From IMG/VR virus record IMGVR_UViG_3300047440_000309, positions 1 through 42,715 of that record: a stretch of 42,715 nucleotides of DNA, one strand, 5' to 3'. Positions 4,819 to 42,715 of this stretch are shown here, piece by piece (the stretch's first letter is position 1; every line of letters starts with the position of its first letter). A program made the position numbers and the translations under genes. Source of the stretch: a virus. A model generated the notes under the pieces. The model was not told where the DNA came from, did not search any database, and saw only the letters and a program-made list of their open reading frames with translations.

Positions 4819-5036
4819 TGGGTCCAATCTGCCGCCAGATGCTAACCCGCCTCGCCGATGATCCTACGGGCGAAGGCGGGTTTAGGGTCGGCGAAATCAG
4901 CGGCGCGGCTGTCCGTCATGGGTGGGTCTGCGCCGTGTGGGAGACCCGAAAGATTCGCTTCTACAAGATCACCGAAACCGGCCGCGCGGCGATTGTCGCA
5001 TGGCGCGCCAAGCAACCGAAGGAACCCCGAACGTGA
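4818..5036 (+). CDS. Small winged-helix-like protein
   Basis: 72 aa starting at a GTG that shares a base with the previous stop. The N-terminal half (CRQMLTRLADDPTGEGGFRV) resembles the first helices of a winged helix and the C-terminal KIRFYKITETGRAAIVAWRA resembles the wing and last helix of small MarR/PadR-like phage proteins. DNA binding is inferred from this pattern only. Its stop overlaps the recombinase start (GTGA), so it may be co-expressed with it and regulate it. Confidence 0.65.
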   Translation: MGPICRQMLTRLADDPTGEGGFRVGEISGAAVRHGWVCAVWETRKIRFYKITETGRAAIVAWRAKQPKEPRT

Positions 5037-5686
5037 GCCGTCGAACCCCCGCACCCGCCACGCCTGCCGCGCCTATTCGCAGCGGCCCCGCGCGCTTTGC
5101 TTACTACCGTGTGTCGTCGTCCGATCAGACGATAGACGCGCAGCGGCAAGAGCTAGGCGGCGGACCCTACGACCGCGAATTCACCGATGAAGACACTAGC
5201 GGGACGATCCCGATGGCGCAGCGGCCGGGCTTCGCCGCCCTCTTGGCTGCGGCGCGCGAGGGTGACACCCTTTATGTCGCGGCGGTTGACCGGCTGGGGC
5301 GGGACGCTATCGACGTTCAATCAACCGTCCGCCGCCTGATCGATGCGGGCGTTGTGGTGGACGTGAAAGGCCTTGGACCTATCGGCCGGGGCGTGGGCGA
5401 AATTATTATTGCCGTGCTGGCGCAGGTCGCCGACCTCGAACGCCGCCGCATCCTGGCGAGAGCGAACGCAGGCCGCGACGCAGCCCGCGCGAGCCTCGCC
5501 GCGACCGGCCGCACACATCGGGGCGCGGAAAGCCTCGGGCGACCTCGCGAGGTTGACCCCGAAATGGTCGCCGCGTGGCGGCTTCAGAACAACGCCAGCA
5601 TATCGGCGACCGCGCGCCACTTCGGAACGTCTGACACTACCGTCAAGCGGTGCTGCGCCGCGTTCCGGCCGAAGGTGGCGGCTTAA
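5033..5686 (+). CDS. Serine recombinase of the resolvase/invertase family
   Basis: 217 aa from the GTG at 5033 that overlaps the previous stop; longer upstream starts run through the preceding gene. It has an unusual Pro/Ala-rich N-terminal extension of about 20 residues, then FAYYRVSSSDQTIDAQRQEL with the catalytic Ser at about residue 28 and Arg 26, followed by VDRLGRD (Arg 87, Arg 90) and a long helix. A C-terminal helix-turn-helix lies near 176-208 (VDPEMVAAWRLQNNASISAT onward). Family members form a phosphoserine link to DNA and resolve or invert sites. Here it could resolve multimers or switch DNA; no invertible segment was seen. It is distinct from the tyrosine integrase at 19897. Confidence 0.9.
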   Translation: MSRRTPAPATPAAPIRSGPARFAYYRVSSSDQTIDAQRQELGGGPYDREFTDEDTSGTIPMAQRPGFAALLAAAREGDTLYVAAVDRLGRDAIDVQSTVRRLIDAGVVVDVKGLGPIGRGVGEIIIAVLAQVADLERRRILARANAGRDAARASLAATGRTHRGAESLGRPREVDPEMVAAWRLQNNASISATARHFGTSDTTVKRCCAAFRPKVAA

Positions 5687-6141: not shown

Positions 6142-7728
6142 CTACCCGGCCCACACGCTAGGCCCGCCTGCGGTCTTTCTGAGGCCCTTACGCCATGCCC
6201 TGTCCTCGTCACTCGCGCGGCTCGGCATGGCGACCGGGGACGCAAATGTCAGCGCCAGTGAATCCCATCCATCGGGGCTGCGTAGGCCTCGCTTGCGTAT
6301 ATCTTCCTTGCTTTCGAGCAAAAGGTATTGCCGCATATCGTACTTAAAGCCCGGCGCGACCGCATCGGCGTGAAGCGCGTCGTCATCTGGAATATCCGCG
6401 CCGCCCTCATCTTCTAACCACTCGCGCGAACGCATCCACATTTCCGCGCGTCTATTCTTCGGGCCGGGGATAATCTCTCCGCGTTCGTTCGTCTTCGGTT
6501 GATCCTGCGGCGACCCGCCGAAGTTTACTGAAACGACTAGATCGCTGTACGGCTCGCCATAGTCGCGCAGGATATCGATGACCCCCGCACCCATGTTCCC
6601 AACGTCAATGAACACCGCTCGCGGGCTGTACTGATCGATAACGGCCTTAACCCAATTCGCGCCCTCAATCGTGTTCAGGCGATAGCGCCGCTCGACCTTC
6701 AGAACCTTGCGGCCCTGGCGCCAGCAAATGGCAAAGCTGTCGTCACCGAACCGCGCCGGATCGACGCCCACCACAAGCCCGCCGATGGCCTCACAGGTGC
6801 GCTTGCGAGCTTCTAGAACCAGGCGAGTCGGGATGAAGGATTCATGGCCTGTGGATTGGAAGGCCATCGCCGCCGACGATGGGTATTCCTGATTGAACAA
6901 GGCCACGTCTTTTAGTTCGGCCATCTTCACGCGCCGCCATGCCATTTGCGGCAAGGTCAGCCCGTACATTCGGGCTTCGTGTTCTTCCTCGTCCGTCAGT
7001 TCAAAGCCGACCGGGGGCGTGCGCTGGTACTCGTCAGACACGAACCAGGGAACGAAGATGGCCTGCCAGTCGCCCTCGCCGTTTTCGGCCATGCGCCAGC
7101 GTTCATGAAACTCGCCGCCGATCCCGTTCGCGGTGGACTCTAGAATGGCCTCGGTTCCCGGTAGGTCGGGAAGGGCTTGGACGACGCCCGCGAAGTGGTC
7201 GGCCGCGTTCGGCCAGAAGGCGACCTCGGAACCGTGGAAGCATTGGATGGTCTTAGACCGCCCGACCGCCCGCGTGCCTGCCGTGCCGACGCTGTAGCCG
7301 CTATCTGCGGCCGGGAATGACAGTTCCTTGGCGTTGGACGCGCCCGCCTTCAGCCGTTCCTCGGCGCTCATGTACTTGTGGAACCGATCGACCATGTTGA
7401 AAAGGTTATCGGTCGCATCCTGTTCGTGGGTCAGGATGAAGACTTGGGTTCCCATGAAGAATTGCGTTCGGTGGAAGAAGCGAGAACCTATATAAGTGGA
7501 CACGCCTTGTTGACGTGCCTTGAGAACTAGCGCCCTAACCTTTCCGGTTTTGGCTTTCTGTTCTTCTAGCTTTGCGTGGATGATGCGCTGTGCGTTGTTA
7601 AGCTTGAAACGCTCTAGCGTCGCGGCCTTAGTCTTCAGGATCAGGCAATCGGCCGTGAACTTGAGGTAGTCGTCTTTCCAGGCCTGCCGCTGGCCTAGCT
7701 TTTCGGTCTGGTAAGCGACCCCTGCCAC
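6142..7728 (-). CDS. terL: Terminase large subunit (packaging ATPase and nuclease)
   Basis: 528 aa from a GTG. It docks on the portal, cuts concatemeric DNA and pumps it into the prohead. The ATPase half carries the Walker A-like KARQQGVST (residues 70-78) and the coupling motif ESTANG (197-202). The RNase H-like nuclease half has GVDPARFGDD (Asp 323), AVFIDVGNMG (Asp 375) and a late Asp near 489 in GWDSLAL, the three metal ligands. Length is normal. It follows the small subunit with a 4-bp gap. It is the last gene of this leftward run, about 30 kb away from the portal, an unusual split of the packaging module on the linear map. Confidence 0.95.
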   Translation of the reverse strand: MAGVAYQTEKLGQRQAWKDDYLKFTADCLILKTKAATLERFKLNNAQRIIHAKLEEQKAKTGKVRALVLKARQQGVSTYIGSRFFHRTQFFMGTQVFILTHEQDATDNLFNMVDRFHKYMSAEERLKAGASNAKELSFPAADSGYSVGTAGTRAVGRSKTIQCFHGSEVAFWPNAADHFAGVVQALPDLPGTEAILESTANGIGGEFHERWRMAENGEGDWQAIFVPWFVSDEYQRTPPVGFELTDEEEHEARMYGLTLPQMAWRRVKMAELKDVALFNQEYPSSAAMAFQSTGHESFIPTRLVLEARKRTCEAIGGLVVGVDPARFGDDSFAICWRQGRKVLKVERRYRLNTIEGANWVKAVIDQYSPRAVFIDVGNMGAGVIDILRDYGEPYSDLVVSVNFGGSPQDQPKTNERGEIIPGPKNRRAEMWMRSREWLEDEGGADIPDDDALHADAVAPGFKYDMRQYLLLESKEDIRKRGLRSPDGWDSLALTFASPVAMPSRASDEDRAWRKGLRKTAGGPSVWAG

Positions 7729-7732
7729 GCGG

Positions 7733-8239
7733 TTACCGCAGAAGCTTCACGGCGTCGTCTTGCGACAGGTAACCGACATTCTGCCCGTCATCGATTTTGT
7801 CGCCCCACGTCGCGGGGTCTAGCCGCTTGGCGACCCGCTCGCGAAAGTCGGCCCTGATCTTCGACCGCTGCACCGAAACCGGGTTAGGCAAGAGCCGGTC
7901 TTCAATCTCGATCAGGTCATTTCTGGCGTCGTCTACAATCTCGATAATCTGATCCATGAACATCGCGGCGCGCATCCGCTGCGCCATCATGAAGACCCGG
8001 TTGAAGTCCTCATGCTGCACCCGCCACCGGAAGATTGTCGTGAAGTGCGGCCAGCCCTTTTCTTTGCAGACGGTCATCAGGCCGCGCGGGTCGCTGGCGA
8101 CCGACTCGCAAATCGCCTCGGCAAGCGCGGGCGTGTATTTCGTTATGCCGCGCCGATCACGCGGCGGCGCCGGGTCGCGGAACATCACGCGCGCCGGGTC
8201 TAGGACGACCAAATTGGAGTCGTCTTCCTCGTCAGACAC
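7733..8239 (-). CDS. terS: Terminase small subunit (Sf6 gp1-like)
   Basis: 168 aa from a GTG, directly upstream of terL. Residues 35-90 (TKYTPALAEAICESVASDPR, then GLMTVCKEKGWPHFTTIFRW) form the N-terminal helix-turn-helix of the Sf6/P22-type small terminase, which recognises the packaging start and forms a ring. The remainder is the helical oligomerisation domain, with SVQRSKIRADFRERVAKRLD and PATWGDK, a common end block of this family. Sf6-type subunits usually go with headful packaging, which would fit a circularly permuted genome. Confidence 0.92.
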   Translation of the reverse strand: MSDEEDDSNLVVLDPARVMFRDPAPPRDRRGITKYTPALAEAICESVASDPRGLMTVCKEKGWPHFTTIFRWRVQHEDFNRVFMMAQRMRAAMFMDQIIEIVDDARNDLIEIEDRLLPNPVSVQRSKIRADFRERVAKRLDPATWGDKIDDGQNVGYLSQDDAVKLLR

Positions 8240-8251
8240 CGGGCGTAACCC

Positions 8252-8434
8252 CTACTTCTTATAGGGGCTGTTCGGGACCGGAGCGCCGCCGATGTTGGAC
8301 GACTTGTAAGGCGAATAGTTCGCCCCGCCGCCGTCGATTGACTTGGTTTTTGGGGAGCCGTTCAGCGTGTCGCCGCGCGGCGTGGAACCCGAACCGGAAG
8401 ACTTCGGGTTAATGATCGGATCACGTTCGGCCAT
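8252..8434 (-). CDS. Small low-complexity protein, unknown function
   Basis: 60 aa, rich in Ser, Gly, Pro and Asn, with two SPYK repeats (ANYSPYKSSN and PNSPYKK) and no hydrophobic core, so it is probably disordered. It starts with ATG 13 bp before the small terminase gene and lies just downstream of the 29-bp element that also precedes the gene at 41057. Similar disordered small proteins sit beside terminase genes in other podoviruses. Function unknown. Confidence 0.65.
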   Translation of the reverse strand: MAERDPIINPKSSGSGSTPRGDTLNGSPKTKSIDGGGANYSPYKSSNIGGAPVPNSPYKK

Positions 8435-8452: not shown

Positions 8453-8481
8453 GGCGCACCGGAACCAAAGGCTGTGGGGTG
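8453..8481 (-). promoter_or_regulatory. 29-bp element shared with 41081-41109
   Basis: The two copies agree at 26 of 29 bases, with the shared core GGAACCAAA and GCTGTGGGGTG on the plus strand. Each copy lies about 20-25 bp upstream of the ATG of the first gene of a minus-strand run: the terminase run here, the portal run at 41057. This is the position of a late promoter or activator site. It does not match sigma70 consensus. Confidence 0.6.
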
Positions 8482-8482
8482 T

Positions 8483-8689
8483 TTAACGCAAGCCCATAGA
8501 CTGGCCTATGTGCCAGCCGTCGCAATGCGGGCACCTGAAGGTTTCCATCCGCGTATGTTTCGACTTCGCCATGCGCGAAGCGACCTGCCGCGCTAGGTCG
8601 CGGCGGTGCGGTTCGAAGCGGACCTTTCCCCAGCATGACGGCATCGCCCCGCCCCGGCTGTCGCGGATTTCACGCTGCTCGTTCATCAT
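8483..8689 (-). CDS. Small zinc-ribbon-like phage protein
   Basis: 68 aa. The C-terminal part reads FRCPHCDGWHIGQ, a C-x2-C and W-H-x-G pattern common in small phage proteins that may form half of a zinc site; the N-terminal half is basic. The ATG at 8689 is chosen because GGGAGG lies 6 nt upstream, one of the better ribosome sites in the window; an adjacent ATG at 8686 is possible. It overlaps the end of the GcrA-like gene by 20 bp, so the two are co-transcribed. Function unknown. Confidence 0.75.
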   Translation of the reverse strand: MMNEQREIRDSRGGAMPSCWGKVRFEPHRRDLARQVASRMAKSKHTRMETFRCPHCDGWHIGQSMGLR

Positions 8690-9104
8690 GGCAGGCCTCC
8701 CGCACGGTTAGGGTCAGGTGAAAGGCGCAGTACCGGCGCCGTGACCCGGCCGCGACGTGCCCGCCGCAAGCGATAAGGCCTTGGTCATCGTCGCCGACCG
8801 GGAAGGCGCATTCGGACCACGCCCGCGCGTCCATCGGCTTAGGGTCTGAATCTGGTCCAAGGCGCGCCAGCGTCGGCATGGGGGCGCTGGGCTTCAGCGT
8901 GGATGACGCGGCTTTCCGCTTCCCGCCGAAGGACGTTTCAATCACCCCACGCGGGCGCAGACCCAGGTGGGTACGTCGCCGCCGAACTGACGTTGCCGTC
9001 GCCCCGCCGCCTAGCAGCACGGCGATCTGTGAAGCGCTTAAGCCCGCCTTCCATGCGACCTCTAAGGCCGCGTCCATCGGCGGAAACCAAAAGGCCTTAG
9101 TCAC
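8670..9104 (-). CDS. GcrA-like cell-cycle transcription regulator
   Basis: 144 aa from the GTG at 9104, which overlaps the upstream stop as GTGA and has AGGAGG 7 nt before it; an ATG at 9110 lies too close to that site. Residues 8-50 (DAALEVAWKAGLSASQIAVL, then SVRRRRTHLGLRPRG) match the N-terminal helix-turn-helix of GcrA. The C-terminal CAFPVGD, LIACGGH and RRYCAFH match the sigma70-binding C-terminal region with its conserved Cys/His. Cellular GcrA binds CcrM-methylated GANTC promoters with sigma70 and drives cell-cycle genes in Alphaproteobacteria. The phage copy could reprogram host or phage promoters; that role is inferred. Confidence 0.85.
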   Translation of the reverse strand: MTKAFWFPPMDAALEVAWKAGLSASQIAVLLGGGATATSVRRRRTHLGLRPRGVIETSFGGKRKAASSTLKPSAPMPTLARLGPDSDPKPMDARAWSECAFPVGDDDQGLIACGGHVAAGSRRRYCAFHLTLTVREACHDERAA

Positions 9105-9697
9105 TCCCATTCCTCCTCTTGCTGCCCGCCGAACGGGATAGGATCGTCAAACGGAATTTCATTCCCACTACGGCGATAGGGGTTCGGCTTCAGAACCTTC
9201 GCGCCGGGGAATTCGGTTTTCGCGGCCTGTAGGCTCGCGGGAATTGAATCGATCACGTTGCCGATTTCGGCCGCCGTGTAGACGCGCAGATAGCGGCCCT
9301 CGGCGATGACTTTCGAGGCCTCGGCGTCGGACTGAACCAGGGCGGCAATTGAGCCGTCCGCTAGCCTGACCTCCCAAACCCACGGCGCGACCGGCCGATG
9401 GCCTGCGGCCTCTGCCGCATCATCCAGGGCGGCCCACGCCCGCTGCATTGCGCCGGTCTTCTTCTCGACCTCGCCTAGGGTCGCCACGGTCAGGAATTCG
9501 GACTTCCAACAGGCTTCCAACGCCTTGCGCCACCGCGCCTGCTGACCCCTGAACCGCGCCAGTAGCGAGGCGTCGATTTGGCCGCATAGGATTTCGAGAC
9601 GGCCCACGCCCCACTTGCGTTCGGCCTCGGTGCGCGCCGCGTCGGCGGCTTCGAAGTAGCCGGTGAGCTTGGCCGCGTCGTCTGGTGAAATCGCCAT
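9101..9697 (-). CDS. Conserved replication-region protein, unknown function
   Basis: 198 aa, soluble. Residues 1-100 are helical with many charged residues; a middle part (APWVWEVRLADGSIAALVQS, about 103-122) looks like a small beta domain; the C-terminus is acidic (GGQQEEEWE). I do not recognise a named family. It lies between the GcrA-like gene and a Cys protein with one-to-four-base overlaps on both sides, within the replication run. A role in DNA metabolism is suggested only by location. Confidence 0.75.
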   Translation of the reverse strand: MAISPDDAAKLTGYFEAADAARTEAERKWGVGRLEILCGQIDASLLARFRGQQARWRKALEACWKSEFLTVATLGEVEKKTGAMQRAWAALDDAAEAAGHRPVAPWVWEVRLADGSIAALVQSDAEASKVIAEGRYLRVYTAAEIGNVIDSIPASLQAAKTEFPGAKVLKPNPYRRSGNEIPFDDPIPFGGQQEEEWE

Positions 9698-14401: not shown

Positions 14402-14623
14402 TCACGCCGCCGTCCGCGAGCGCTGGCGCCGGGTCGCGGCGGCAAGCGCCAACTCGGGCAGGCTCGCCATGTCGTGCTGCGCGATCAACAGCCAATATTC
14501 GCCGGGGATGGAGTCGCGCTGCCACCACGACTGAACCGTGGTGGGTCGTTGCGACAGGCTCAGTTTTTTCGCGACCGCTGTGACGCCCCCGGCGTCGTGG
14601 ATCACGTCTCGATGAGTACGCAT
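14402..14623 (-). CDS. Cro/YdaS-like helix-turn-helix repressor
   Basis: 73 aa. Residues 5-45 (DVIHDAGGVTAVAKKLSLSQ, then TTVQSWWQRDSIPGEYWLLI) match the small Cro/YdaS-type fold: AVA-KKL turn, recognition helix with TVQSWW, then the RDSIPGEYW segment that follows the helix in this family. The C-terminus is basic. Being first in the leftward replication run and facing a region with inverted-repeat operators, it is the best candidate for the lysis-lysogeny switch. No CI-like protein with a cleavage domain was found opposite it. Confidence 0.8.
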   Translation of the reverse strand: MRTHRDVIHDAGGVTAVAKKLSLSQRPTTVQSWWQRDSIPGEYWLLIAQHDMASLPELALAAATRRQRSRTAA

Positions 14624-17024: not shown

Positions 17025-18146
17025 ATGACACAGACCGACCTTATGACGATGGCCCGGTTTCTCGTGCTGCCCGGCGCGAGCGAACTGCTAGAGGCCTTTT
17101 CGCAGATACCACCCGGCCGTCTGCGCGAAAGCGCCGTGGCCCACGTCCAGGCTATCGCAGAGACCTATTCCAGCGCTCCGGTCGAACAGCAAATGCCTGA
17201 CCCGCTGTTGACAGCCGCACAGGGCGCACCGGAGCCCGTCAGGGTCATTGAGACGCCGCGCGAGACCCTACCCGCCCTGACCCCGATTGAAGCCCTCAGT
17301 AACCGCCGCAGGGGCGTTCCGAAGTCCGACGATCCAGACGTGAAGGCTATCGAGCTAGCGCTTCAGGGTATGTCGCCGCAGAACATCGCCGTCGAACTGA
17401 ACATGCCGATTTCATCGGTCATGTGGGCCAGGAAGAAGGCCCTGCGCGCCGGGCTGATTTTCCCGAAAATCGTTGGTCGCCGTGGCGGGTCGAAGAAGAA
17501 GAAGAAGTTTCAGGCGAGCTTCGCCATGACGCTTGATGATCTGGATATGCGCGGCATCGGGATTGCTACGGCGGCTGCGTCGCGGCGCGGCCTGACCTTG
17601 GAGTCCTATATCGAGCGACGGCGCATCACGGTCGAAATGGCCCAGGACGGTCGCCATATCCAGGCGATTATAAACGCGGTGAAGGAAGACGAACCGACCA
17701 TCCGTTCATGGCTGAATAAGGCTCGCGCGGCCGGGCTTCCGGTTCCTTATGTCGCCGTGGATTACGGCATGGCGAACGTCGCGCCGGTTGAACCGGAGCC
17801 CGAGCCCGAGCCTGAACCCGAGGCGATAGTTCCGGTGCAAAGCTCTGTGGTGGTGAACCTGCGGTCAGCGGGGATAGACCCGCCGCCGCGCCATCGCGCC
17901 TTCTCCGTCTCGCTAGAAGGCCTTAGCGGGACGCAGGTTTCCGCCATCGAACGCGGCGCGGCGCTACTGAGTGTCAGCGTCGAGGAATATCTAGAGGTTC
18001 GCCGCCAAGCGCTCGAAATGATGCGGAACGGCATCGATACAGGGACCGTCGCTAAGACCCTGAACATTACCCCCAAAATGTCTTCGAACTGGCGTCAGCG
18101 GGCTATCGACGCCGGGGTTCTTATCGTCCCGCGCAAACAGGCCTGA
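17025..18146 (+). CDS. Multi-HTH DNA-binding protein with duplicated domain
   Basis: 373 aa. Three helix-turn-helix units can be seen: HTH1 at 104-147 (AIELALQGMSPQNIAVELNM); repeat A at 166-241, ending with a helix-turn-helix (IRSWLNKARAAGLPVP); and repeat B at 292-369 (TGTVAKTLNITPKMSSNWRQ). Repeats A and B align over about 75 residues, including L-x-SYIERRR versus VEEYLEVRR and the ARAAGLPVP versus AIDAGVLIVP ends, so they arose by duplication. A Lys-rich stretch (157-161) and an EP-repeat linker (256-266) separate the units. It probably binds several operator half sites at once. It is the largest gene of the accessory run. Confidence 0.8.
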   Translation: MTQTDLMTMARFLVLPGASELLEAFSQIPPGRLRESAVAHVQAIAETYSSAPVEQQMPDPLLTAAQGAPEPVRVIETPRETLPALTPIEALSNRRRGVPKSDDPDVKAIELALQGMSPQNIAVELNMPISSVMWARKKALRAGLIFPKIVGRRGGSKKKKKFQASFAMTLDDLDMRGIGIATAAASRRGLTLESYIERRRITVEMAQDGRHIQAIINAVKEDEPTIRSWLNKARAAGLPVPYVAVDYGMANVAPVEPEPEPEPEPEAIVPVQSSVVVNLRSAGIDPPPRHRAFSVSLEGLSGTQVSAIERGAALLSVSVEEYLEVRRQALEMMRNGIDTGTVAKTLNITPKMSSNWRQRAIDAGVLIVPRKQA

Positions 18147-33391: not shown

Positions 33392-34447
33392 CTACAGCGT
33401 AAAGGTCGAAAGAACGATTGTCCCGAAATCAGCATTGTTGAAGCGGGACTTCTTCAGACCGTGGATAAGCCCGGCTTCGACGCCAAGTTTGTTGCCATAG
33501 TCGAAGAGTTCTTCATTCCAGTCGAAGTTATCGAACGACTGACCTTTACCGAAGGCAATGAAACCAGCCTGCGCGCCCATCAGGACGGCGCGGCGGGTGT
33601 TCGGAACCGCGAGGCCGGTCGCGGCCGACACGCCTTGGGTAATCCGCGTGCTTTCGTGCAGCACGACGCCGTTATACATGCCGAGCGCGCCGGTCATGAT
33701 CGGGTTACCCTTCGACCCGTCGCCGGTCATCGCCGCCTTTTGGATATCGAGCCAAAGCCCGGTGCCCGTCGCGGTGCGAAGCTGCGTCACCTGATTGGTG
33801 TGCAGGACCATCACGTAACGGTCGTCACCATCGACTTTGATCGGCCGGATCACCGGGGTCGCCAGCTTCGCGATAGCGACAAGCTGATCGATCAGGGTGA
33901 GGGTCATTTCGTCGCCAGCGGCGAGCGATTGGTCGTTCGCCTTGGCGTTCGGCCGGAAGACGTGCGCGGCGTCAGGACCAAGCACCGCGTTCATGCCGGT
34001 AAAGCGCGGATCGACGGCAGGGGTGAACCCGCATTCCTGATTAAAGAACGCGGTGTCCATCCGCCCCGCCCACCAATCCTTGAGGCCTTGCATGGCTTCT
34101 TCGCGGATCGACCAGGGGATGCGCTGTTCAGTCATCTTCCCGGCCGACTTCACGGCATGGCGAAGCTGATCGATGAACAGGTCATCGGTGTAGGTGGAGA
34201 GAGCTTCTTCGTTGCCCTCAAGCGTCCCGTCGCCCAGGACGCCATCGCCGGTCAACTGCATCCGCAGCGTGATACGAACGCGGTCGCCCGCGTCTTTCTT
34301 CGTGTCGCTGTACGTTTGCAGGACTGCATCGGACCCGTCACCGATGAAGCGCTGAATCCATGTCGCCTTGAGCGCTTCGCGGGCAAGCTGCGATGACCAC
34401 AGCTTTTTTGCCTCGGGAGCGTTGACGCCGTATGCGGTTTCGGCCAT
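33392..34447 (-). CDS. Major capsid protein (N4 gp56 family)
   Basis: 351 aa. The N-terminus ETAYGVNAPEAKKLWSSQLA, REALKATWIQRFIGDGSDAV and a following LRMQLTGDGVLGDGTLEGNE segment match the N4 gp56/DUF4043 major capsid family: N-arm, a GD-x-LEG-NEE-x-L loop, then TDDLFIDQLRHAVKSAGKMT. A later part has RYVMVLHTNQVTQLRTATGT and GVYNGVV-like strands. This HK97-fold protein builds the head. Length is slightly below the usual 380-400 aa. Its leader contains a small hairpin followed by Ts. Confidence 0.88.
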   Translation of the reverse strand: MAETAYGVNAPEAKKLWSSQLAREALKATWIQRFIGDGSDAVLQTYSDTKKDAGDRVRITLRMQLTGDGVLGDGTLEGNEEALSTYTDDLFIDQLRHAVKSAGKMTEQRIPWSIREEAMQGLKDWWAGRMDTAFFNQECGFTPAVDPRFTGMNAVLGPDAAHVFRPNAKANDQSLAAGDEMTLTLIDQLVAIAKLATPVIRPIKVDGDDRYVMVLHTNQVTQLRTATGTGLWLDIQKAAMTGDGSKGNPIMTGALGMYNGVVLHESTRITQGVSAATGLAVPNTRRAVLMGAQAGFIAFGKGQSFDNFDWNEELFDYGNKLGVEAGLIHGLKKSRFNNADFGTIVLSTFTL

Positions 34448-34610
34448 GTGCTTGATTCCACAAGAGAAAACGGAAAGTTTGGGTTTTCCGCTTCCGTGCC
34501 GTGGAAGCCATCGAGGCCCTTGCGGGCTGGCCCTTACCGGGGGCGAGGCGAGCGCTGATAAGGCCCAGCAAGGCCGTAGTTAGCCGACCTGAAGACGTGG
34601 AGTTAGGGCG
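34448..34610. other. Intergenic region before the capsid gene, with hairpin
   Basis: About 163 bp, the largest gap inside the late run. On the minus strand CGGAAA-N8-TTTCCG (34490-34471) is followed by TTTTCTC, a weak terminator-like or processing hairpin, 24 bp before the capsid start. GGA lies about 10 nt before the ATG. No promoter of sigma70 type and no copy of the 29-bp element was seen. Confidence 0.4.
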
Positions 34611-34913
34611 TCAAGCCGGATTTCGAAGGTGGATCAGCACACAGGCGGCGCTGCACAGACATTCGGACGGCGAATTGGCGTTCACCGCCACCGGCCTACC
34701 GCACACGTCGCAGGGCTGTTTGATCCCGCGCCAGCCGGGGTATTGGTCCGCCGCGCCGGGGTCGGCGTTTTCGCAGGGCTCAACGATTTCATCGAAATAG
34801 CGCCACATCATATGGACGAAACAGTAGCCGAGCGCCCGCGTGCGGCTGTTCTTTATGTGCCCGCCGTAGTGGGCGCAGTCGCCGCAGGGGAGCGTGTTAA
34901 AGCCATTCTTCAT
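34611..34913 (-). CDS. Cysteine-rich small protein, probable zinc binder
   Basis: 100 aa from the ATG at 34913; a GTG at 34919 is an alternative. It has eight or more Cys in pairs: LPCGDCAHYGGH, GYCFVHMMW, PCDVCGRPVAVNANSPSECL, CSAACVL. Two zinc-ribbon-like sites are plausible. No family is recognised. It lies, with the next three genes, between scaffold and capsid genes, where no structural role is required, so the group looks like a moron cluster carried in the late run. Confidence 0.7.
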   Translation of the reverse strand: MKNGFNTLPCGDCAHYGGHIKNSRTRALGYCFVHMMWRYFDEIVEPCENADPGAADQYPGWRGIKQPCDVCGRPVAVNANSPSECLCSAACVLIHLRNPA

Positions 34914-37562: not shown

Positions 37563-37758
37563 CGGGAGACGCGCTCCCGAGCGCCACCAGGGCGGCGTTT
37601 ATCTCACCCCGACGCGCCTTTAAGGCCTCGCTGCGTTGGGTCAGGGCGTTGGCGTCGTCACTGTCCGGTTCGGCTTTTTCGAGCTTCCGGGTGGCGATCT
37701 TGATTTCAGCCGCATAGGCGGCGCTCGCGCGCAGAAGGAGGTTCACAGCCTCACTCAT
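37555..37758 (-). CDS. Small coiled-coil protein
   Basis: 67 aa (SEAVNLLLRASAAYAAEIKI, then RKLEKAEPDSDDANALTQRS), almost wholly helical. The ATG at 37758 overlaps the portal stop by 8 bp. Small helical proteins between portal and scaffold genes are usual in P22-like and N4-gp56-capsid podoviruses, without a known role. Confidence 0.7.
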   Translation of the reverse strand: MSEAVNLLLRASAAYAAEIKIATRKLEKAEPDSDDANALTQRSEALKARRGEINAALVALGSASPDG

Positions 37759-39793
37759 TCGGCAGGCCTCCCCCTTGGTTCACGGTCACCTTGTGGCCGG
37801 GCGCCGGGGGCGGCTGCGACGCCTTCATCAGCTTCGCGACGATTTCGCCCTTCGCCTTCATCTGCTCACCGGCCGCCTGTTGGTCCTTCAGGTTCGCGGT
37901 GGCGAGCTTTTCCTTCGTGTCGGCCGACTGGTTCGCCATTTCCGAGGCGAAGCCGACGCGTTCGGCCTCATCGCGCTCTTGCTGTTCCGGGTCGGGCTGC
38001 GACTTCGCTTTCGCCCGCTGGCGTATCCCTTGGGCCAGCTTTTCGGCGACGGCGGCCGGGATATCCATGTACGGCAGCATGTCGGCGATTTCCTCCTCGC
38101 CGATGATCCCGTTCGCGTACATTTCCGGCAGCAGCGGGCCGAGGGTCGCCATGACCTTCGCCTTTTGGTTCGGCCCGGCCGGGGCTTCATCCACGATAAT
38201 GTCGTACTGGCCTGTCCCCATCGCCTTCGCGAGCGGGATATATTTCACGATCCCCTTCTCGACGATTTTCATGAGCTTATCGGCGGGCAGGAACAGCCGC
38301 ATTTGCTCAAGCTGAAGCCGCCCTTGGTCGCGCTGATAGCGGCGCTTGGAGTCGAAGAAGGCCGAGAGAATGCCGTAGGCGGCCTGTTTGCGCTGTTGCT
38401 CTAGAACCCCGGCCTGCTCGCGGCCGACAAGGCCTAGGATTTCCTCGTTTACGCCTGTGCAGGCGCGAACCATGTCCTTCGCGAATTCCATGAGCGAGAA
38501 CAGGGACGGATTGATCGGCGGCGGGGTCTTTGGGCTGACTTTCGGCCCCTGCGCGTTCGACAGAGAGCCAGGTTTGACCCAAGTAATCCGGTCGGACGCC
38601 GCCCAGGTCGCCTCGAATTTCCGAATGTCCGCAACCGCGTCTTCTTCCATCAGAAGGCCGCCGTTGGCATTGGTCCGCACGATATGCAGGATTTCCGAGT
38701 AGAGCTTATTCATGAACCGCTGCGGGTCGATCATCGCCCGCACCAGCCCGAACCACGTTCCCTTGTTCCGGTCGCGCTTGGCGGTGATCGCCTGATAGCG
38801 GAACGCCTTTTCAGGAAGCTCCTCGTCAAACAGGATCACCGCGTCAGCGACGATAGCCCGATAATAGACCTTCTCCGTCGAACGGGTGTGCGGCAGGCCG
38901 GGGTTATCCCGCAGGGCTTCGGCGAATTCCTCCGGCCGCAGCTTGCCGATCTTCACCACATTCGGGTCTTCCGGCGACGGCAGCGGCGCGAGGAAGATCG
39001 GCTGTTTCTCCCACCATTGCCATTCGCAGACCGTGACCTCATCGGACCCGGCCGAGCTTCCGATCATGCCTGACGTGTAGCGGGTTTTCGGATTTACAAT
39101 CGTCAGCCGCTTTCCGGTATCGACCCCCGCGTAATTATCCGGCTCCGCATCGGGCTGGCCGAGGTCGGCCGCGTAATCTTCGAAGTCGTCGCGGCTCATC
39201 GGCCATTCGCGCTTCAGGTAGCGGGCATCCTCGAAATTCGGCTTCCGCGAAGACGGATCGGCCTTCATTTCCAGCGGATCGACCCGCTCTTTCGTCAACT
39301 CGATATCGTCGCCGTCGATTTCAGGGACGCTGACCGTCCAGCCGATCCCGCAGACCAGGGCGTCGTAAAAGGCCTCGCTGTCCTCCATGTCGCCGTTGCA
39401 TTGGTCGCTGACATATTGGGCCGACTGCGTAAGCACGTCCGACACGCCCTGATCGCCGGGCTCGCGGGCGATATATTGCACTTGTTGGCGGTTCTGGATT
39501 TCGGCGCCCTGAACGGCGTCGAGGGTCGGCGCGGTGATGTTGAAGACCACCGGGATTTTCTGGTTATCCTCCATCGCCGACTTATCGGTGGGGTTCCACT
39601 GATGACCGGCCGCGAAGTCGTAGGCCTGTTTCGCGTCCTCCTGCCACGACGACCACTTCGCCGACAAAAGCACGTCCCACCGGGCGAACATCGACAGCAG
39701 CCGTTCGTCGCGCGCCTCATCCCCGCCGCCTTCGGCCGGGGTGGGTTGGGCGTCGAACTGCGGCCCACGGTCGGGGACATAGGATTCGGTCAT
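37751..39793 (-). CDS. Portal protein (P22 type)
   Basis: 680 aa from the ATG at 39793 (ATGA overlap). The N-terminal part, SSWQEDAKQAYDFAAGHQWN, PVVFNITAPTLDAVQGAEIQ, NRQQVQYIAREPGD, is the typical beginning of P22-type portals; the middle has the KRDRNKGTWFGLVRAMIDPQ segment and the ACTGVNEEILGLVGREQAGV block. The C-terminal 60 residues are charged and helical, the barrel end. It forms the dodecameric DNA channel and terminase dock. Length is normal. Confidence 0.92.
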   Translation of the reverse strand: MTESYVPDRGPQFDAQPTPAEGGGDEARDERLLSMFARWDVLLSAKWSSWQEDAKQAYDFAAGHQWNPTDKSAMEDNQKIPVVFNITAPTLDAVQGAEIQNRQQVQYIAREPGDQGVSDVLTQSAQYVSDQCNGDMEDSEAFYDALVCGIGWTVSVPEIDGDDIELTKERVDPLEMKADPSSRKPNFEDARYLKREWPMSRDDFEDYAADLGQPDAEPDNYAGVDTGKRLTIVNPKTRYTSGMIGSSAGSDEVTVCEWQWWEKQPIFLAPLPSPEDPNVVKIGKLRPEEFAEALRDNPGLPHTRSTEKVYYRAIVADAVILFDEELPEKAFRYQAITAKRDRNKGTWFGLVRAMIDPQRFMNKLYSEILHIVRTNANGGLLMEEDAVADIRKFEATWAASDRITWVKPGSLSNAQGPKVSPKTPPPINPSLFSLMEFAKDMVRACTGVNEEILGLVGREQAGVLEQQRKQAAYGILSAFFDSKRRYQRDQGRLQLEQMRLFLPADKLMKIVEKGIVKYIPLAKAMGTGQYDIIVDEAPAGPNQKAKVMATLGPLLPEMYANGIIGEEEIADMLPYMDIPAAVAEKLAQGIRQRAKAKSQPDPEQQERDEAERVGFASEMANQSADTKEKLATANLKDQQAAGEQMKAKGEIVAKLMKASQPPPAPGHKVTVNQGGGLPNE

Positions 39794-40095
39794 GCCGCGA
39801 GCCGCCAAACAATCGAGCGCCGGGTTTTCCCGGCAGGCACGCGACGTTCGCCGCTATCCACGACAAGCTGAACTTCGGTCAGCTTCTTCATGCGCGGCGA
39901 AATGCTGTCACGCGGCAGGCCGACTTCTTCGGCAATCTCAGTCGTGGTCAGGCCTTCCGGGTGCGCGGCCAGCCGTTCGCAAACAAGCTTCTGAAGGTGG
40001 GCCAGCGTTTCACTCGTCAGCGACGACGCCGCGTCGTGGGCGGTGTGGGGGTCGGTACGGCGCGCCCATGCGAACAGGTCTTCTTCGTCGCTCAT
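39790..40095 (-). CDS. Winged-helix protein
   Basis: 101 aa from the ATG at 40095 (ATGA overlap on both sides). LAHLQKLVCERLAAHPEGLT, TTEIAEEVGLPRDSISPRMK and KLTEVQLVVDSGERRVPAGK give a clear MarR/IclR-like winged helix with recognition helix and beta wing. A DNA-binding gene in front of the portal gene might tune late transcription or act in packaging. Common in alphaproteobacterial podoviruses at this place, by memory; role unknown. Confidence 0.75.
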   Translation of the reverse strand: MSDEEDLFAWARRTDPHTAHDAASSLTSETLAHLQKLVCERLAAHPEGLTTTEIAEEVGLPRDSISPRMKKLTEVQLVVDSGERRVPAGKTRRSIVWRLAA

Positions 40096-40319: not shown

Positions 40320-40536
40320 GGCCGGGAACCGTCGTCGTCAGGACCGACACATCTAAAAGCTGATCGAACTCGACCGCTTGAAGCGGGGTCACCAGGATTC
40401 TCGCGACACTTTCGTTAAACCGCGGCCATTGGCCGAACACGTTCGAATAGAACACCGCAGCCGCGTTCAGGCCCTTCAAGGCCGCCTGTAGACCGGCGAT
40501 AGCCTGCGCGGCCTGTGCGGGTGCGGGACCGCTCAT
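40312..40536 (-). CDS. Small protein, unknown function
   Basis: 74 aa, beginning SGPAPAQAAQAIAGLQAALK and containing VFYSNVFGQWPRFNESVARI. It is small, helical at first and hydrophobic in parts but without a clear membrane span. It overlaps the preceding gene by ATGA. No family is recognised. Confidence 0.65.
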   Translation of the reverse strand: MSGPAPAQAAQAIAGLQAALKGLNAAAVFYSNVFGQWPRFNESVARILVTPLQAVEFDQLLDVSVLTTTVPGHE

Positions 40537-41057
40537 TCCGGGTCCGACGCGGCTTGATTTTCAGCGGCCGGATCACCCGGCGCAGCCTGCGGGTCTTCCG
40601 CTTCGTCCGCTTCGGTCGGCGGAAGCTCCTGCGCCTCCGTCCGCATCGCCTGTTGATAATCGCGGCAGGCTTCCATGTAAGTCCCGGCGTCGGCGACCAT
40701 TCGCTCAACCGAGGCCAACAGGGCTTCTTCGCCTTCAGACCCGGCGATGCGGTTCAGGGGCGTCGAGGTTTCGCAAAGAACGATCCCCTCGAAATCGCAG
40801 GACGCCTTCAGGCGGAATTCGTTATCGACAACCTCGCGGACGAACAGCCACCGTCGCCCATTGCTATCGAACCGGCGACACTCGCCGAACATATATCCCT
40901 GTAGGGCGTCCTGCGCGATGGCCCCGGCCTCGGACGGCTGAACCTTCTTAACCGGCCGAATTTCGCGCTCTAGCGCGTCCACCTGTTCTCGCCACAGCGG
41001 GGGCAGGTCAGGCGCGGCCGGGGGCTTTTCGGTCGGGGTGTGCGGCTTTCGAGCCAT
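40533..41057 (-). CDS. First gene of the portal run, unknown function
   Basis: 174 aa from the ATG at 41057; an earlier in-frame start at 41096 lies inside the 29-bp element and is rejected. A Pro-rich start (ARKPHTPTEKPPAAPDLPPL) is followed by ALEREIRPVKKVQPSEAGAI, a beta part (GRRWLFVREVVDNEFRLKAS) and a disordered acidic tail (EADEAEDPQAAPGDPAAENQ). No family is recognised. It is 24 bp downstream of the repeat shared with the terminase run. Confidence 0.7.
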   Translation of the reverse strand: MARKPHTPTEKPPAAPDLPPLWREQVDALEREIRPVKKVQPSEAGAIAQDALQGYMFGECRRFDSNGRRWLFVREVVDNEFRLKASCDFEGIVLCETSTPLNRIAGSEGEEALLASVERMVADAGTYMEACRDYQQAMRTEAQELPPTEADEAEDPQAAPGDPAAENQAASDPE

Positions 41058-41080: not shown

Positions 41081-41109
41081 GGCGCGTCGGAACCAAAAGC
41101 TGTGGGGTG
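41081..41109 (-). promoter_or_regulatory. 29-bp element shared with 8453-8481
   Basis: Second copy, 26 of 29 bases identical. It lies between the holin-like gene and the portal run. Both copies precede the first gene of a late run by the same distance, so a common activator or late promoter is likely. Confidence 0.6.
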
Positions 41110-41129
41110 CGCCGGTCAACCGGCTCCGG

Positions 41130-41543: not shown

Positions 41544-41634
41544 AGTCGGGAACAGTCGGGATTAGTCGGGGTCCACCTGTGGCGACCATTGGCGTCCAGT
41601 CGGGTTTAGTCTGATCCAGTCGGGTTTAGTCGGG
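41544..41634 (+). repeat. 10-bp-phased AGTCGGG array
   Basis: AGTCGGG occurs at 41544, 41554 and 41564, then at 41598, 41608 (variant AGTCTGA), 41618 and 41628. Within each cluster the starts are exactly 10 bp apart, about one helical turn, so all sites face the same side of the DNA. The clusters are 34 bp apart. This looks like binding sites for a multimeric regulator or like replication iterons. It lies upstream of the candidate late promoter and downstream of the gene at 41666. Confidence 0.85.
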
Positions 41635-42474: not shown

Positions 42475-42630
42475 CTAGGCTTTCGAGCGCTCGCCGATGG
42501 CCCAAGAGTGGGAATACAGGTGGTCACCCTGCGCCCGGCCGTGCGCGACTAGCGCGACAATCTCACCCTCTGTCATGCGCTCCGTTTGCACCGTGGCATT
42601 CGGAAACCGCGCCGCCCATTGTTCCCGCAT
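42475..42630 (-). CDS. Small leftward early protein, intact copy
   Basis: 51 aa (MREQWAARFPNATVQTERMT, EGEIVALVAHGRAQGDHLYS, HSWAIGERSKA). The ATG at 42630 is preceded by GGATGCTCA and 4 nt, the only leftward use of this leader, and by the TTGACC/TAGATA promoter whose left-end copy is at 135-163. Codon use fits the phage and the frame is open throughout. No family is recognised; the length and the helical middle recall small regulators. The left end carries a broken version of the same gene. Its stop TAG is part of a CCTAGG. Confidence 0.7.
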   Translation of the reverse strand: MREQWAARFPNATVQTERMTEGEIVALVAHGRAQGDHLYSHSWAIGERSKA

Positions 42631-42715
42631 CGCTTGAGCATCCCTTATTGGCTAGTAACTAAGACCCTATCTAATGGCCCATGCTACGCGGGTCAATCGC
42701 CATCGCAAACTTTCT
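42500..42715. repeat. Right copy of terminal direct repeat
   Basis: 42500-42567 and 42627-42715 are identical to 1-68 and 94-182. The 59-bp core (42568-42626) keeps the leftward gene open, unlike the 25-bp core at the left end. Joining the ends gives a circle of 42533 bp with this core or 42499 bp with the left core. The right copy stops inside the promoter spacer, so the full divergent promoter exists only at the left end. Confidence 0.9.

Follow-up and report, generated by a model that had tools for sequence, protein, structure and literature searches.

The window, i.e., the whole stretch of DNA analysed here, comprises 42,715 bases and is a virus record of IMG/VR. Two runs of genes are encoded on its minus strand. 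The terminase run opens with a gene of 60 aa that is kept in relatives (8252..8434) and contains the small subunit (7733..8239, phrog_1482) and the large subunit (6142..7728, phrog_2) of terminase. The portal run opens with a gene of 174 aa, counted from its ATG (40533..41057), and contains the portal protein (37751..39808, phrog_156). These phrog matches agree with the terminase and portal labels that a first-pass annotation had given to the two runs. The major capsid protein (33392..34447, phrog_334) is also encoded on the minus strand, as are a phage GcrA homologue of 146 aa (8670..9110) and a small ORF (8483..8689, phrog_15216) between gcrA and the predicted terminase-side promoter; the last codons of this ORF overlap the −35 element. 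A serine recombinase is encoded on the opposite, plus strand (4922-5686) between the terminase and portal runs, and the records that carry one (4 of 19) have a long terminase-portal gap of about 9-11 kb. A cluster of AGTCGGG repeats with a spacing of about 10 bases, possibly a binding array, was seen at 41544-41634. Relatives were gathered by their terminase and portal proteins, and the full reading covered 19 records, one of them the window.

The repeated element and the map of the phage

The starting point was a 29-bp element at 8453-8481 that recurs at 41081-41109. The identity of 26 of the 29 bases was confirmed. Both copies lie on the minus strand, the one that encodes the two runs. When a 28-base consensus was searched with up to three mismatches, only the two copies were matched in the window, and no copy appeared in 100 dinucleotide shuffles. 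A BLAST search of the first site against the whole record returned the second one (E = 1.3 × 10−6). A chance origin of the 26/29 repeat is excluded. The distance to the first ATG had been described as the same at both places; it is similar, but not identical, with 18 nt before ATG 8434 and 23 nt before ATG 41057.

The two runs had also been taken to lie 30 kb apart. However, the ends of the record overlap (1-68 equals 42500-42567, and 94-182 equals 42627-42715), so the map is circular with a length of about 42.5 kb. The argument from a 30 kb distance therefore falls as an artefact of the linear map, and the copies are about 9.9 kb apart across the junction. In the close relative G001, whose terminase and portal protein are 80% and 83% identical to those of the window, both copies were found in one uninterrupted contig, 10.3 kb apart. 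The repeats at the record ends are interrupted by one short variable stretch (25 versus 59 bases), as if two variants of one site had both been assembled. Self-repeating ends were also seen in 9 other records of the 19.

A near-identity DNA search with the window element returned no match in deposited phages. The exact pattern of the element had 0 matches in viral_contigs, because the part of it that we call the box changes between phages.

Predicted promoters and gene starts

Each copy has TTGAC or TTGCG at the −35 position and, some 11 nt further on, a box within the spacer; a −10 hexamer is lacking. The −35 element sits at a fixed distance just outside the 29 bases of the first-pass annotation. 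The predicted terminase-side late promoter (8453..8491, minus strand) has the −35 element TTGCGT at 8486-8491 and the box CCCCACAGCCTTTG at 8466-8479, and its predicted transcription start is near 8453-8456. The predicted portal-side late promoter (41081..41119, minus strand) has TTGACC at 41114-41119 and the box CCCCACAGCTTTTG at 41094-41107. A third copy, the predicted capsid promoter (34576..34614, minus strand), has TTGACG at 34609-34614 and the box CTCCACGTCTTCAG at 34589-34602. In a held-out search that used the sites of G001, each left-out window copy was the best-ranked position outside the training set (rank 3 of 85,372 positions, behind the two training sites). When the search was trained on the two window sites without G001, the held-out capsid copy took rank 7 of 85,372. 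Without its nearest relative, the case for the predicted third copy of the window is weak.

The two original copies are direct repeats, and on the circle the serine recombinase lies between them, which would suit a recombination site or a duplication bounding a segment. This explanation is very improbable, since the capsid gene has a third copy, the copies keep their −35 element and their spacing to the gene start, and the recombinase occurs in 4 of 19 records (G000, G001, G012 and G032) whereas the sites occur in 17.

We compiled a table of 56 sites from 17 records, aligned at TTG, where TTG was a requirement of the search. Base 3 was A or C in all 56 aligned sites, so that among these TTG-sought sites 46 had TTGA and 10 had TTGC. 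Further conserved positions were base 17 (C in 53), base 14 (G in 41) and base 21 (T or C in 56). Base 24, which corresponds to the −11 A of a −10 element, was A in 35 of the 56. The place of the −10 hexamer is GC-rich across the sites, and a TATAAT-like hexamer at 16-18 nt with four matches including the key A and T was found in 0/56. Judged by the criteria of a canonical sigma70 promoter, the −35 hexamer TTGAC is present and the −10 hexamer is absent. The statement of the first-pass annotation that the element is not a sigma70 promoter is thus right with respect to the −10 hexamer, but it overlooks the TTGAC or TTGCG −35 element at fixed spacing. A −35 element at fixed spacing without a −10 hexamer makes the host sigma70 holoenzyme, working with a cofactor, the likely polymerase. 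A single-subunit phage RNA polymerase was also considered and was rejected; none was seen among the ORFs of the window, because the sole ORF of more than 800 aa is a primase.

We investigated the position of gene starts relative to the sites. An ATG opening at least 50 aa was found at base 33-40, counted from the TTG, in 14 of the 22 copies at portal or tail genes, against a background of 5.0%. Leaderless mRNAs would fit these 14 copies, because the ATG coincides with the transcription start expected from a −35 element at base 0. Leaderless mRNAs with AUG starts are known in S. meliloti, where the −10 region of sigma70 promoters is reportedly poorly conserved (PMC3616915). Longer leaders, with a possible ribosome site, precede the genes of the window. 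The ATG position supports a transcription start at these sites, which would be late promoters.

Both window copies lie shortly upstream of a start codon, as would an RNA element of the leader, such as a hairpin, a terminator or an antiterminator site. This possibility is slight: the leaders fold no better than shuffled sequences (z = −0.40 and −0.11), there is neither a terminator-like site nor an Rfam match, and the predicted RNA of the leaderless relatives starts downstream of the box. Hairpins were seen elsewhere, in the capsid leader (34447-34585, minus strand in the window). The stretch from promoter to ATG there is 114-142 nt long in 16/16 records, and 14/16 records contain a hairpin or two there, of variable stem and with a CG(G/U)nA loop (for example, GCUUCC(acggcac)GGAAGC in the window, CCGCC(acgucag)GGCGG elsewhere). 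These hairpins had no Rfam match, and RNAalifold gave no consensus on a rough alignment.

Distribution of the sites and sharing of the box

Seventeen of the 19 fully read records form the site table, each with a terminase-side site of the same build. A capsid-side site stands 141-169 nt before the gene in 16/16 site-table records that include the capsid gene; the contig of G013 lacks the capsid region. A portal-side site, about 0.9-1.6 kb before the portal gene, was found in 12 of 17 records and a tail-gene site in 10 of 17. The portal copy was not found in G014, G023, G024, G031 and G032, and the tail copy was not found in 7 of 17 records, some contigs of which end before the tail region. The record G033 had neither sites nor gcrA. 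The terminase-side sites of G025, whose contig lacks the capsid region, and of G037 were seen, and they stand outside the 56-site table. A portal-side copy was also found in L009 (G006), outside the 19 records. Gapped local alignment of terminase and portal leaders recovered the pair in four records, while elsewhere long coding matches won; the missed pairs were recovered by anchoring on TTG. A copy on the opposite strand, before an ORF of 386-387 aa ahead of the capsid gene, was seen in L149 (G021) at about 4554 and in L165 (G028) at about 18390.

The search of relatives for a third copy, suggested by the first-pass annotation, thus yielded a capsid-gene copy, and in 10 relatives also a fourth one before tail genes. 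The idea of a shared late promoter element also holds up, as both copies stay in place among the relatives and every phage has a sequence pair of its own. The promoter family is well supported.

The −35 element and the spacing are constant, while the box varies between phages and is repeated within each. The window and G001 have a CCCCAC box; G012 has GCAACAGGCTTC; G020, G021, G027, G028 and G031 have ACGAACG; G023, G024 and G030 have TGATCACTC, TGCACGCTC and GCGAGCGCGTT, respectively. In G012, G023 and others, the box has been replaced and the promoter set retained. The box pattern AAACGAACG gave 12 stretches in viral_contigs, 4 of them within G027 and G028.

The likeness of portal and tail copies within a phage is inflated, because these copies were partly found by their likeness to terminase or capsid copies. 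The unbiased measure of sharing is a comparison of terminase and capsid leaders in which the candidates were picked on their position and the TTG alone, without regard to the box. In 17 records the mean agreement was 12.4/18 within phages and 9.1/18 between phages (permutation, p = 0.00005), and a reduced set of 11 also gave p = 0.00005. The gcrA-negative records G032 and G033 had 8/18 and 9/18, which is the chance level. The terminase-capsid pair of the window was at the chance level as well (9/18), and its terminase-portal pair had 15/18.

This result bears on a simpler explanation, namely ordinary sigma70 promoters of the host, with a strong −35 element, no dedicated activator and a −10 region of poor conservation, the usual case in alphaproteobacteria; gene conversion or descent would account for the shared box. 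The conserved TTGAC argues for it, as do the poorly conserved −10 region reported for S. meliloti and its leaderless mRNAs (PMC3616915). However, the box is closely similar among the copies of one phage and differs between phages; such simple promoters would have no need of a private box, and all 56 sites lack a −10-like hexamer. We consider this explanation improbable.

A phage GcrA as candidate reader of the box

The ORF at 8670-9110 scored 31.6 bits against the Pfam family PF07750, above the cut-off of 26.9, which places it in the GcrA family. Its helix-turn-helix covers residues 10-49, and a putative sigma-interacting domain lies at about 98-145. In a PDB search by sequence, both domains aligned weakly with the Caulobacter protein (7ye1/5yiu, E = 0.011). 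An AlphaFold model from 14 sequences (mean pLDDT 80.9) had GcrA as its three best PDB matches. The N-terminal DNA-binding domain has the GcrA fold, with an rmsd of 1.2 Å to 5yiv over 46 columns and 41% identity. For the C-terminal domain, positions 109-153 of the Pfam profile are covered, and the match to 5yix_B is weak (rmsd 2.5 Å, E = 1.7). The three-helix DNA-binding domain is shared with Caulobacter GcrA (PF07750; 5yiv, 5yix, 7ye1, 7ye2), the cofactor of host sigma70, and the C-terminal domain of this two-domain protein would resemble its sigma2-binding one. From its GcrA gene, the phage would have an alphaproteobacterium as host.

As a cofactor of sigma70, GcrA contacts DNA through its N-terminal domain and binds sigma2 through its C-terminal one (PMC7403470). 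A protein of this kind fits the predicted promoters, in which the −35 element is good, the −10 hexamer is missing and the box adjoins the −10 place. In the host, methylated GANTC is the site of GcrA action (PMC7987155). GANTC was found in none of the 56 boxes, so the sites fall outside the host-type class of GcrA promoters, which carry an m6A-methylated GANTC. Unlike in Caulobacter, the protein here is encoded by the phage, and the site is a phage-specific one without GANTC in the spacer of predicted late promoters. The whole window has 72 GANTC against about 148 expected from base composition, a deficit that may reflect avoidance of CcrM-type sites.

In 16/16 gcrA-positive site-table records, the distance from the terminase-side TTG to the stop codon of gcrA is −37 to +189 nt. 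The record G032 has TTG-anchored sites, and gcrA was not found there by a search at maximum sensitivity. Two deposited phages outside the clade that bear GcrA, RHph_Y1_10 and Mwe-JY13, have no recurrent TTGAC-plus-box; the promoter family is therefore not general to phage GcrA.

We analysed the correlation between the box and the recognition helix of GcrA. Like boxes go with like helices in G023 and G025, in G024 and G026, in G030 and G037, and in G020, G021, G027, G028 and G031. An exception is G014, which has a box like that of G021 and a GcrA helix nearest to that of G013. The helix-box correlation was significant in 17 records (Mantel, r = 0.68, p = 1 × 10−4), and also after the terminase distance was removed (r = 0.56, p = 1 × 10−4). 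Depending on the subset, the helix had r = 0.64-0.76 with the box, while 17 other proteins had 0.34-0.70 and were lower in every subset. For the capsid protein distance, a box correlation of 0.37 was kept.

The second-best correlate of the box (r = 0.70) was the ORF at 17025-18146 (plus strand), which encodes 373 aa, has several HTH matches including Sigma70_r4_2, and occurs in 15 of the 19 records. It may share in reading the box because of this rank. A stronger version would be that the promoters are real and that the box is read by another phage protein, most plausibly this multi-HTH one or else a YdaS-like one (14402-14623), with GcrA acting elsewhere. The multi-HTH protein is present in 14 of 17 gcrA-positive records and in G032 as well, so it would cover the record in which gcrA was not found. 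Yet its correlation drops to 0.31 once the GcrA helix is removed, whereas the helix keeps 0.45 after this ORF is removed; moreover, the ORF is unlinked to the promoters, whereas gcrA adjoins one in 16/16. We regard this reading as unlikely, although it has more in its favour than the other alternatives.

Linkage, fold and co-variation together suggest that the phage GcrA binds both the box and sigma70. We give a probability of about 70% to the reading that it is a late-gene activator acting through a box private to the lineage. In the mechanism that we propose, sigma70 of the host RNA polymerase would grip TTGAC or TTGCG at −35. GcrA, produced from the end of the replication gene block, would tether to sigma70 domain 2 by its C-terminal domain, and its helix-turn-helix would read the box at about −23 to −10, compensating for the absent −10 hexamer. 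The terminase, portal and capsid units would then fire together, and in relatives the tail units too. The box and the recognition helix would change together, giving each phage lineage a private late-promoter code. A bolder generalisation, for which we see even odds, is that phage GcrA is a detachable specificity subunit that is bound to sigma70 domain 2, needs no methylation and reads, with its helix-turn-helix, a box in the spacer instead of a −10 hexamer, with helix and late promoters rewired together in each lineage into mutually private codes.

Other phages divert the host holoenzyme to their own promoters with middle or late activators, such as T4 MotA/AsiA, Mu C and lambda Q. Their promoters likewise have one good hexamer and one missing; the present ones keep the −35 and lack the −10 hexamer. 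None of these activators is known to belong to the GcrA family.

The gp222 GcrA homologues of phiCbK are likewise encoded by an alphaproteobacterial phage, and were proposed to raise the expression of host replication genes or to serve cell-cycle control; unlike here, that account names no phage target promoters in its treatment of GcrA (PMC3556154). In Brevundimonas subvibrioides, the 26-gene prophage operon Bresu_0058-0084 depends on GcrA for a reason that was unclear to its authors (PMC7987155). It likewise has GcrA-dependent portal and terminase genes, but it depends on the GcrA of the host (PMC7987155). The role of a brucellaphage GcrA was left unknown by the authors who described it (PMC11836647). 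Within the open-licence literature on phage GcrA and late promoters or genes, we found no report naming phage promoters for a phage GcrA.

Since 2012, phage copies of GcrA have been viewed as possible tools for steering the host cell cycle (PMC3556154). One group of them now gains a concrete candidate job, namely the activation of packaging, capsid and tail genes of the phage itself. Because several natural pairs of helix and box occur in one clade, the code by which GcrA reads DNA, and whether it requires methylation, can be tested directly. The pairs are also a possible source of mutually private promoters for alphaproteobacteria. The virus itself may switch on its packaging and capsid genes with a regulator borrowed from its host.
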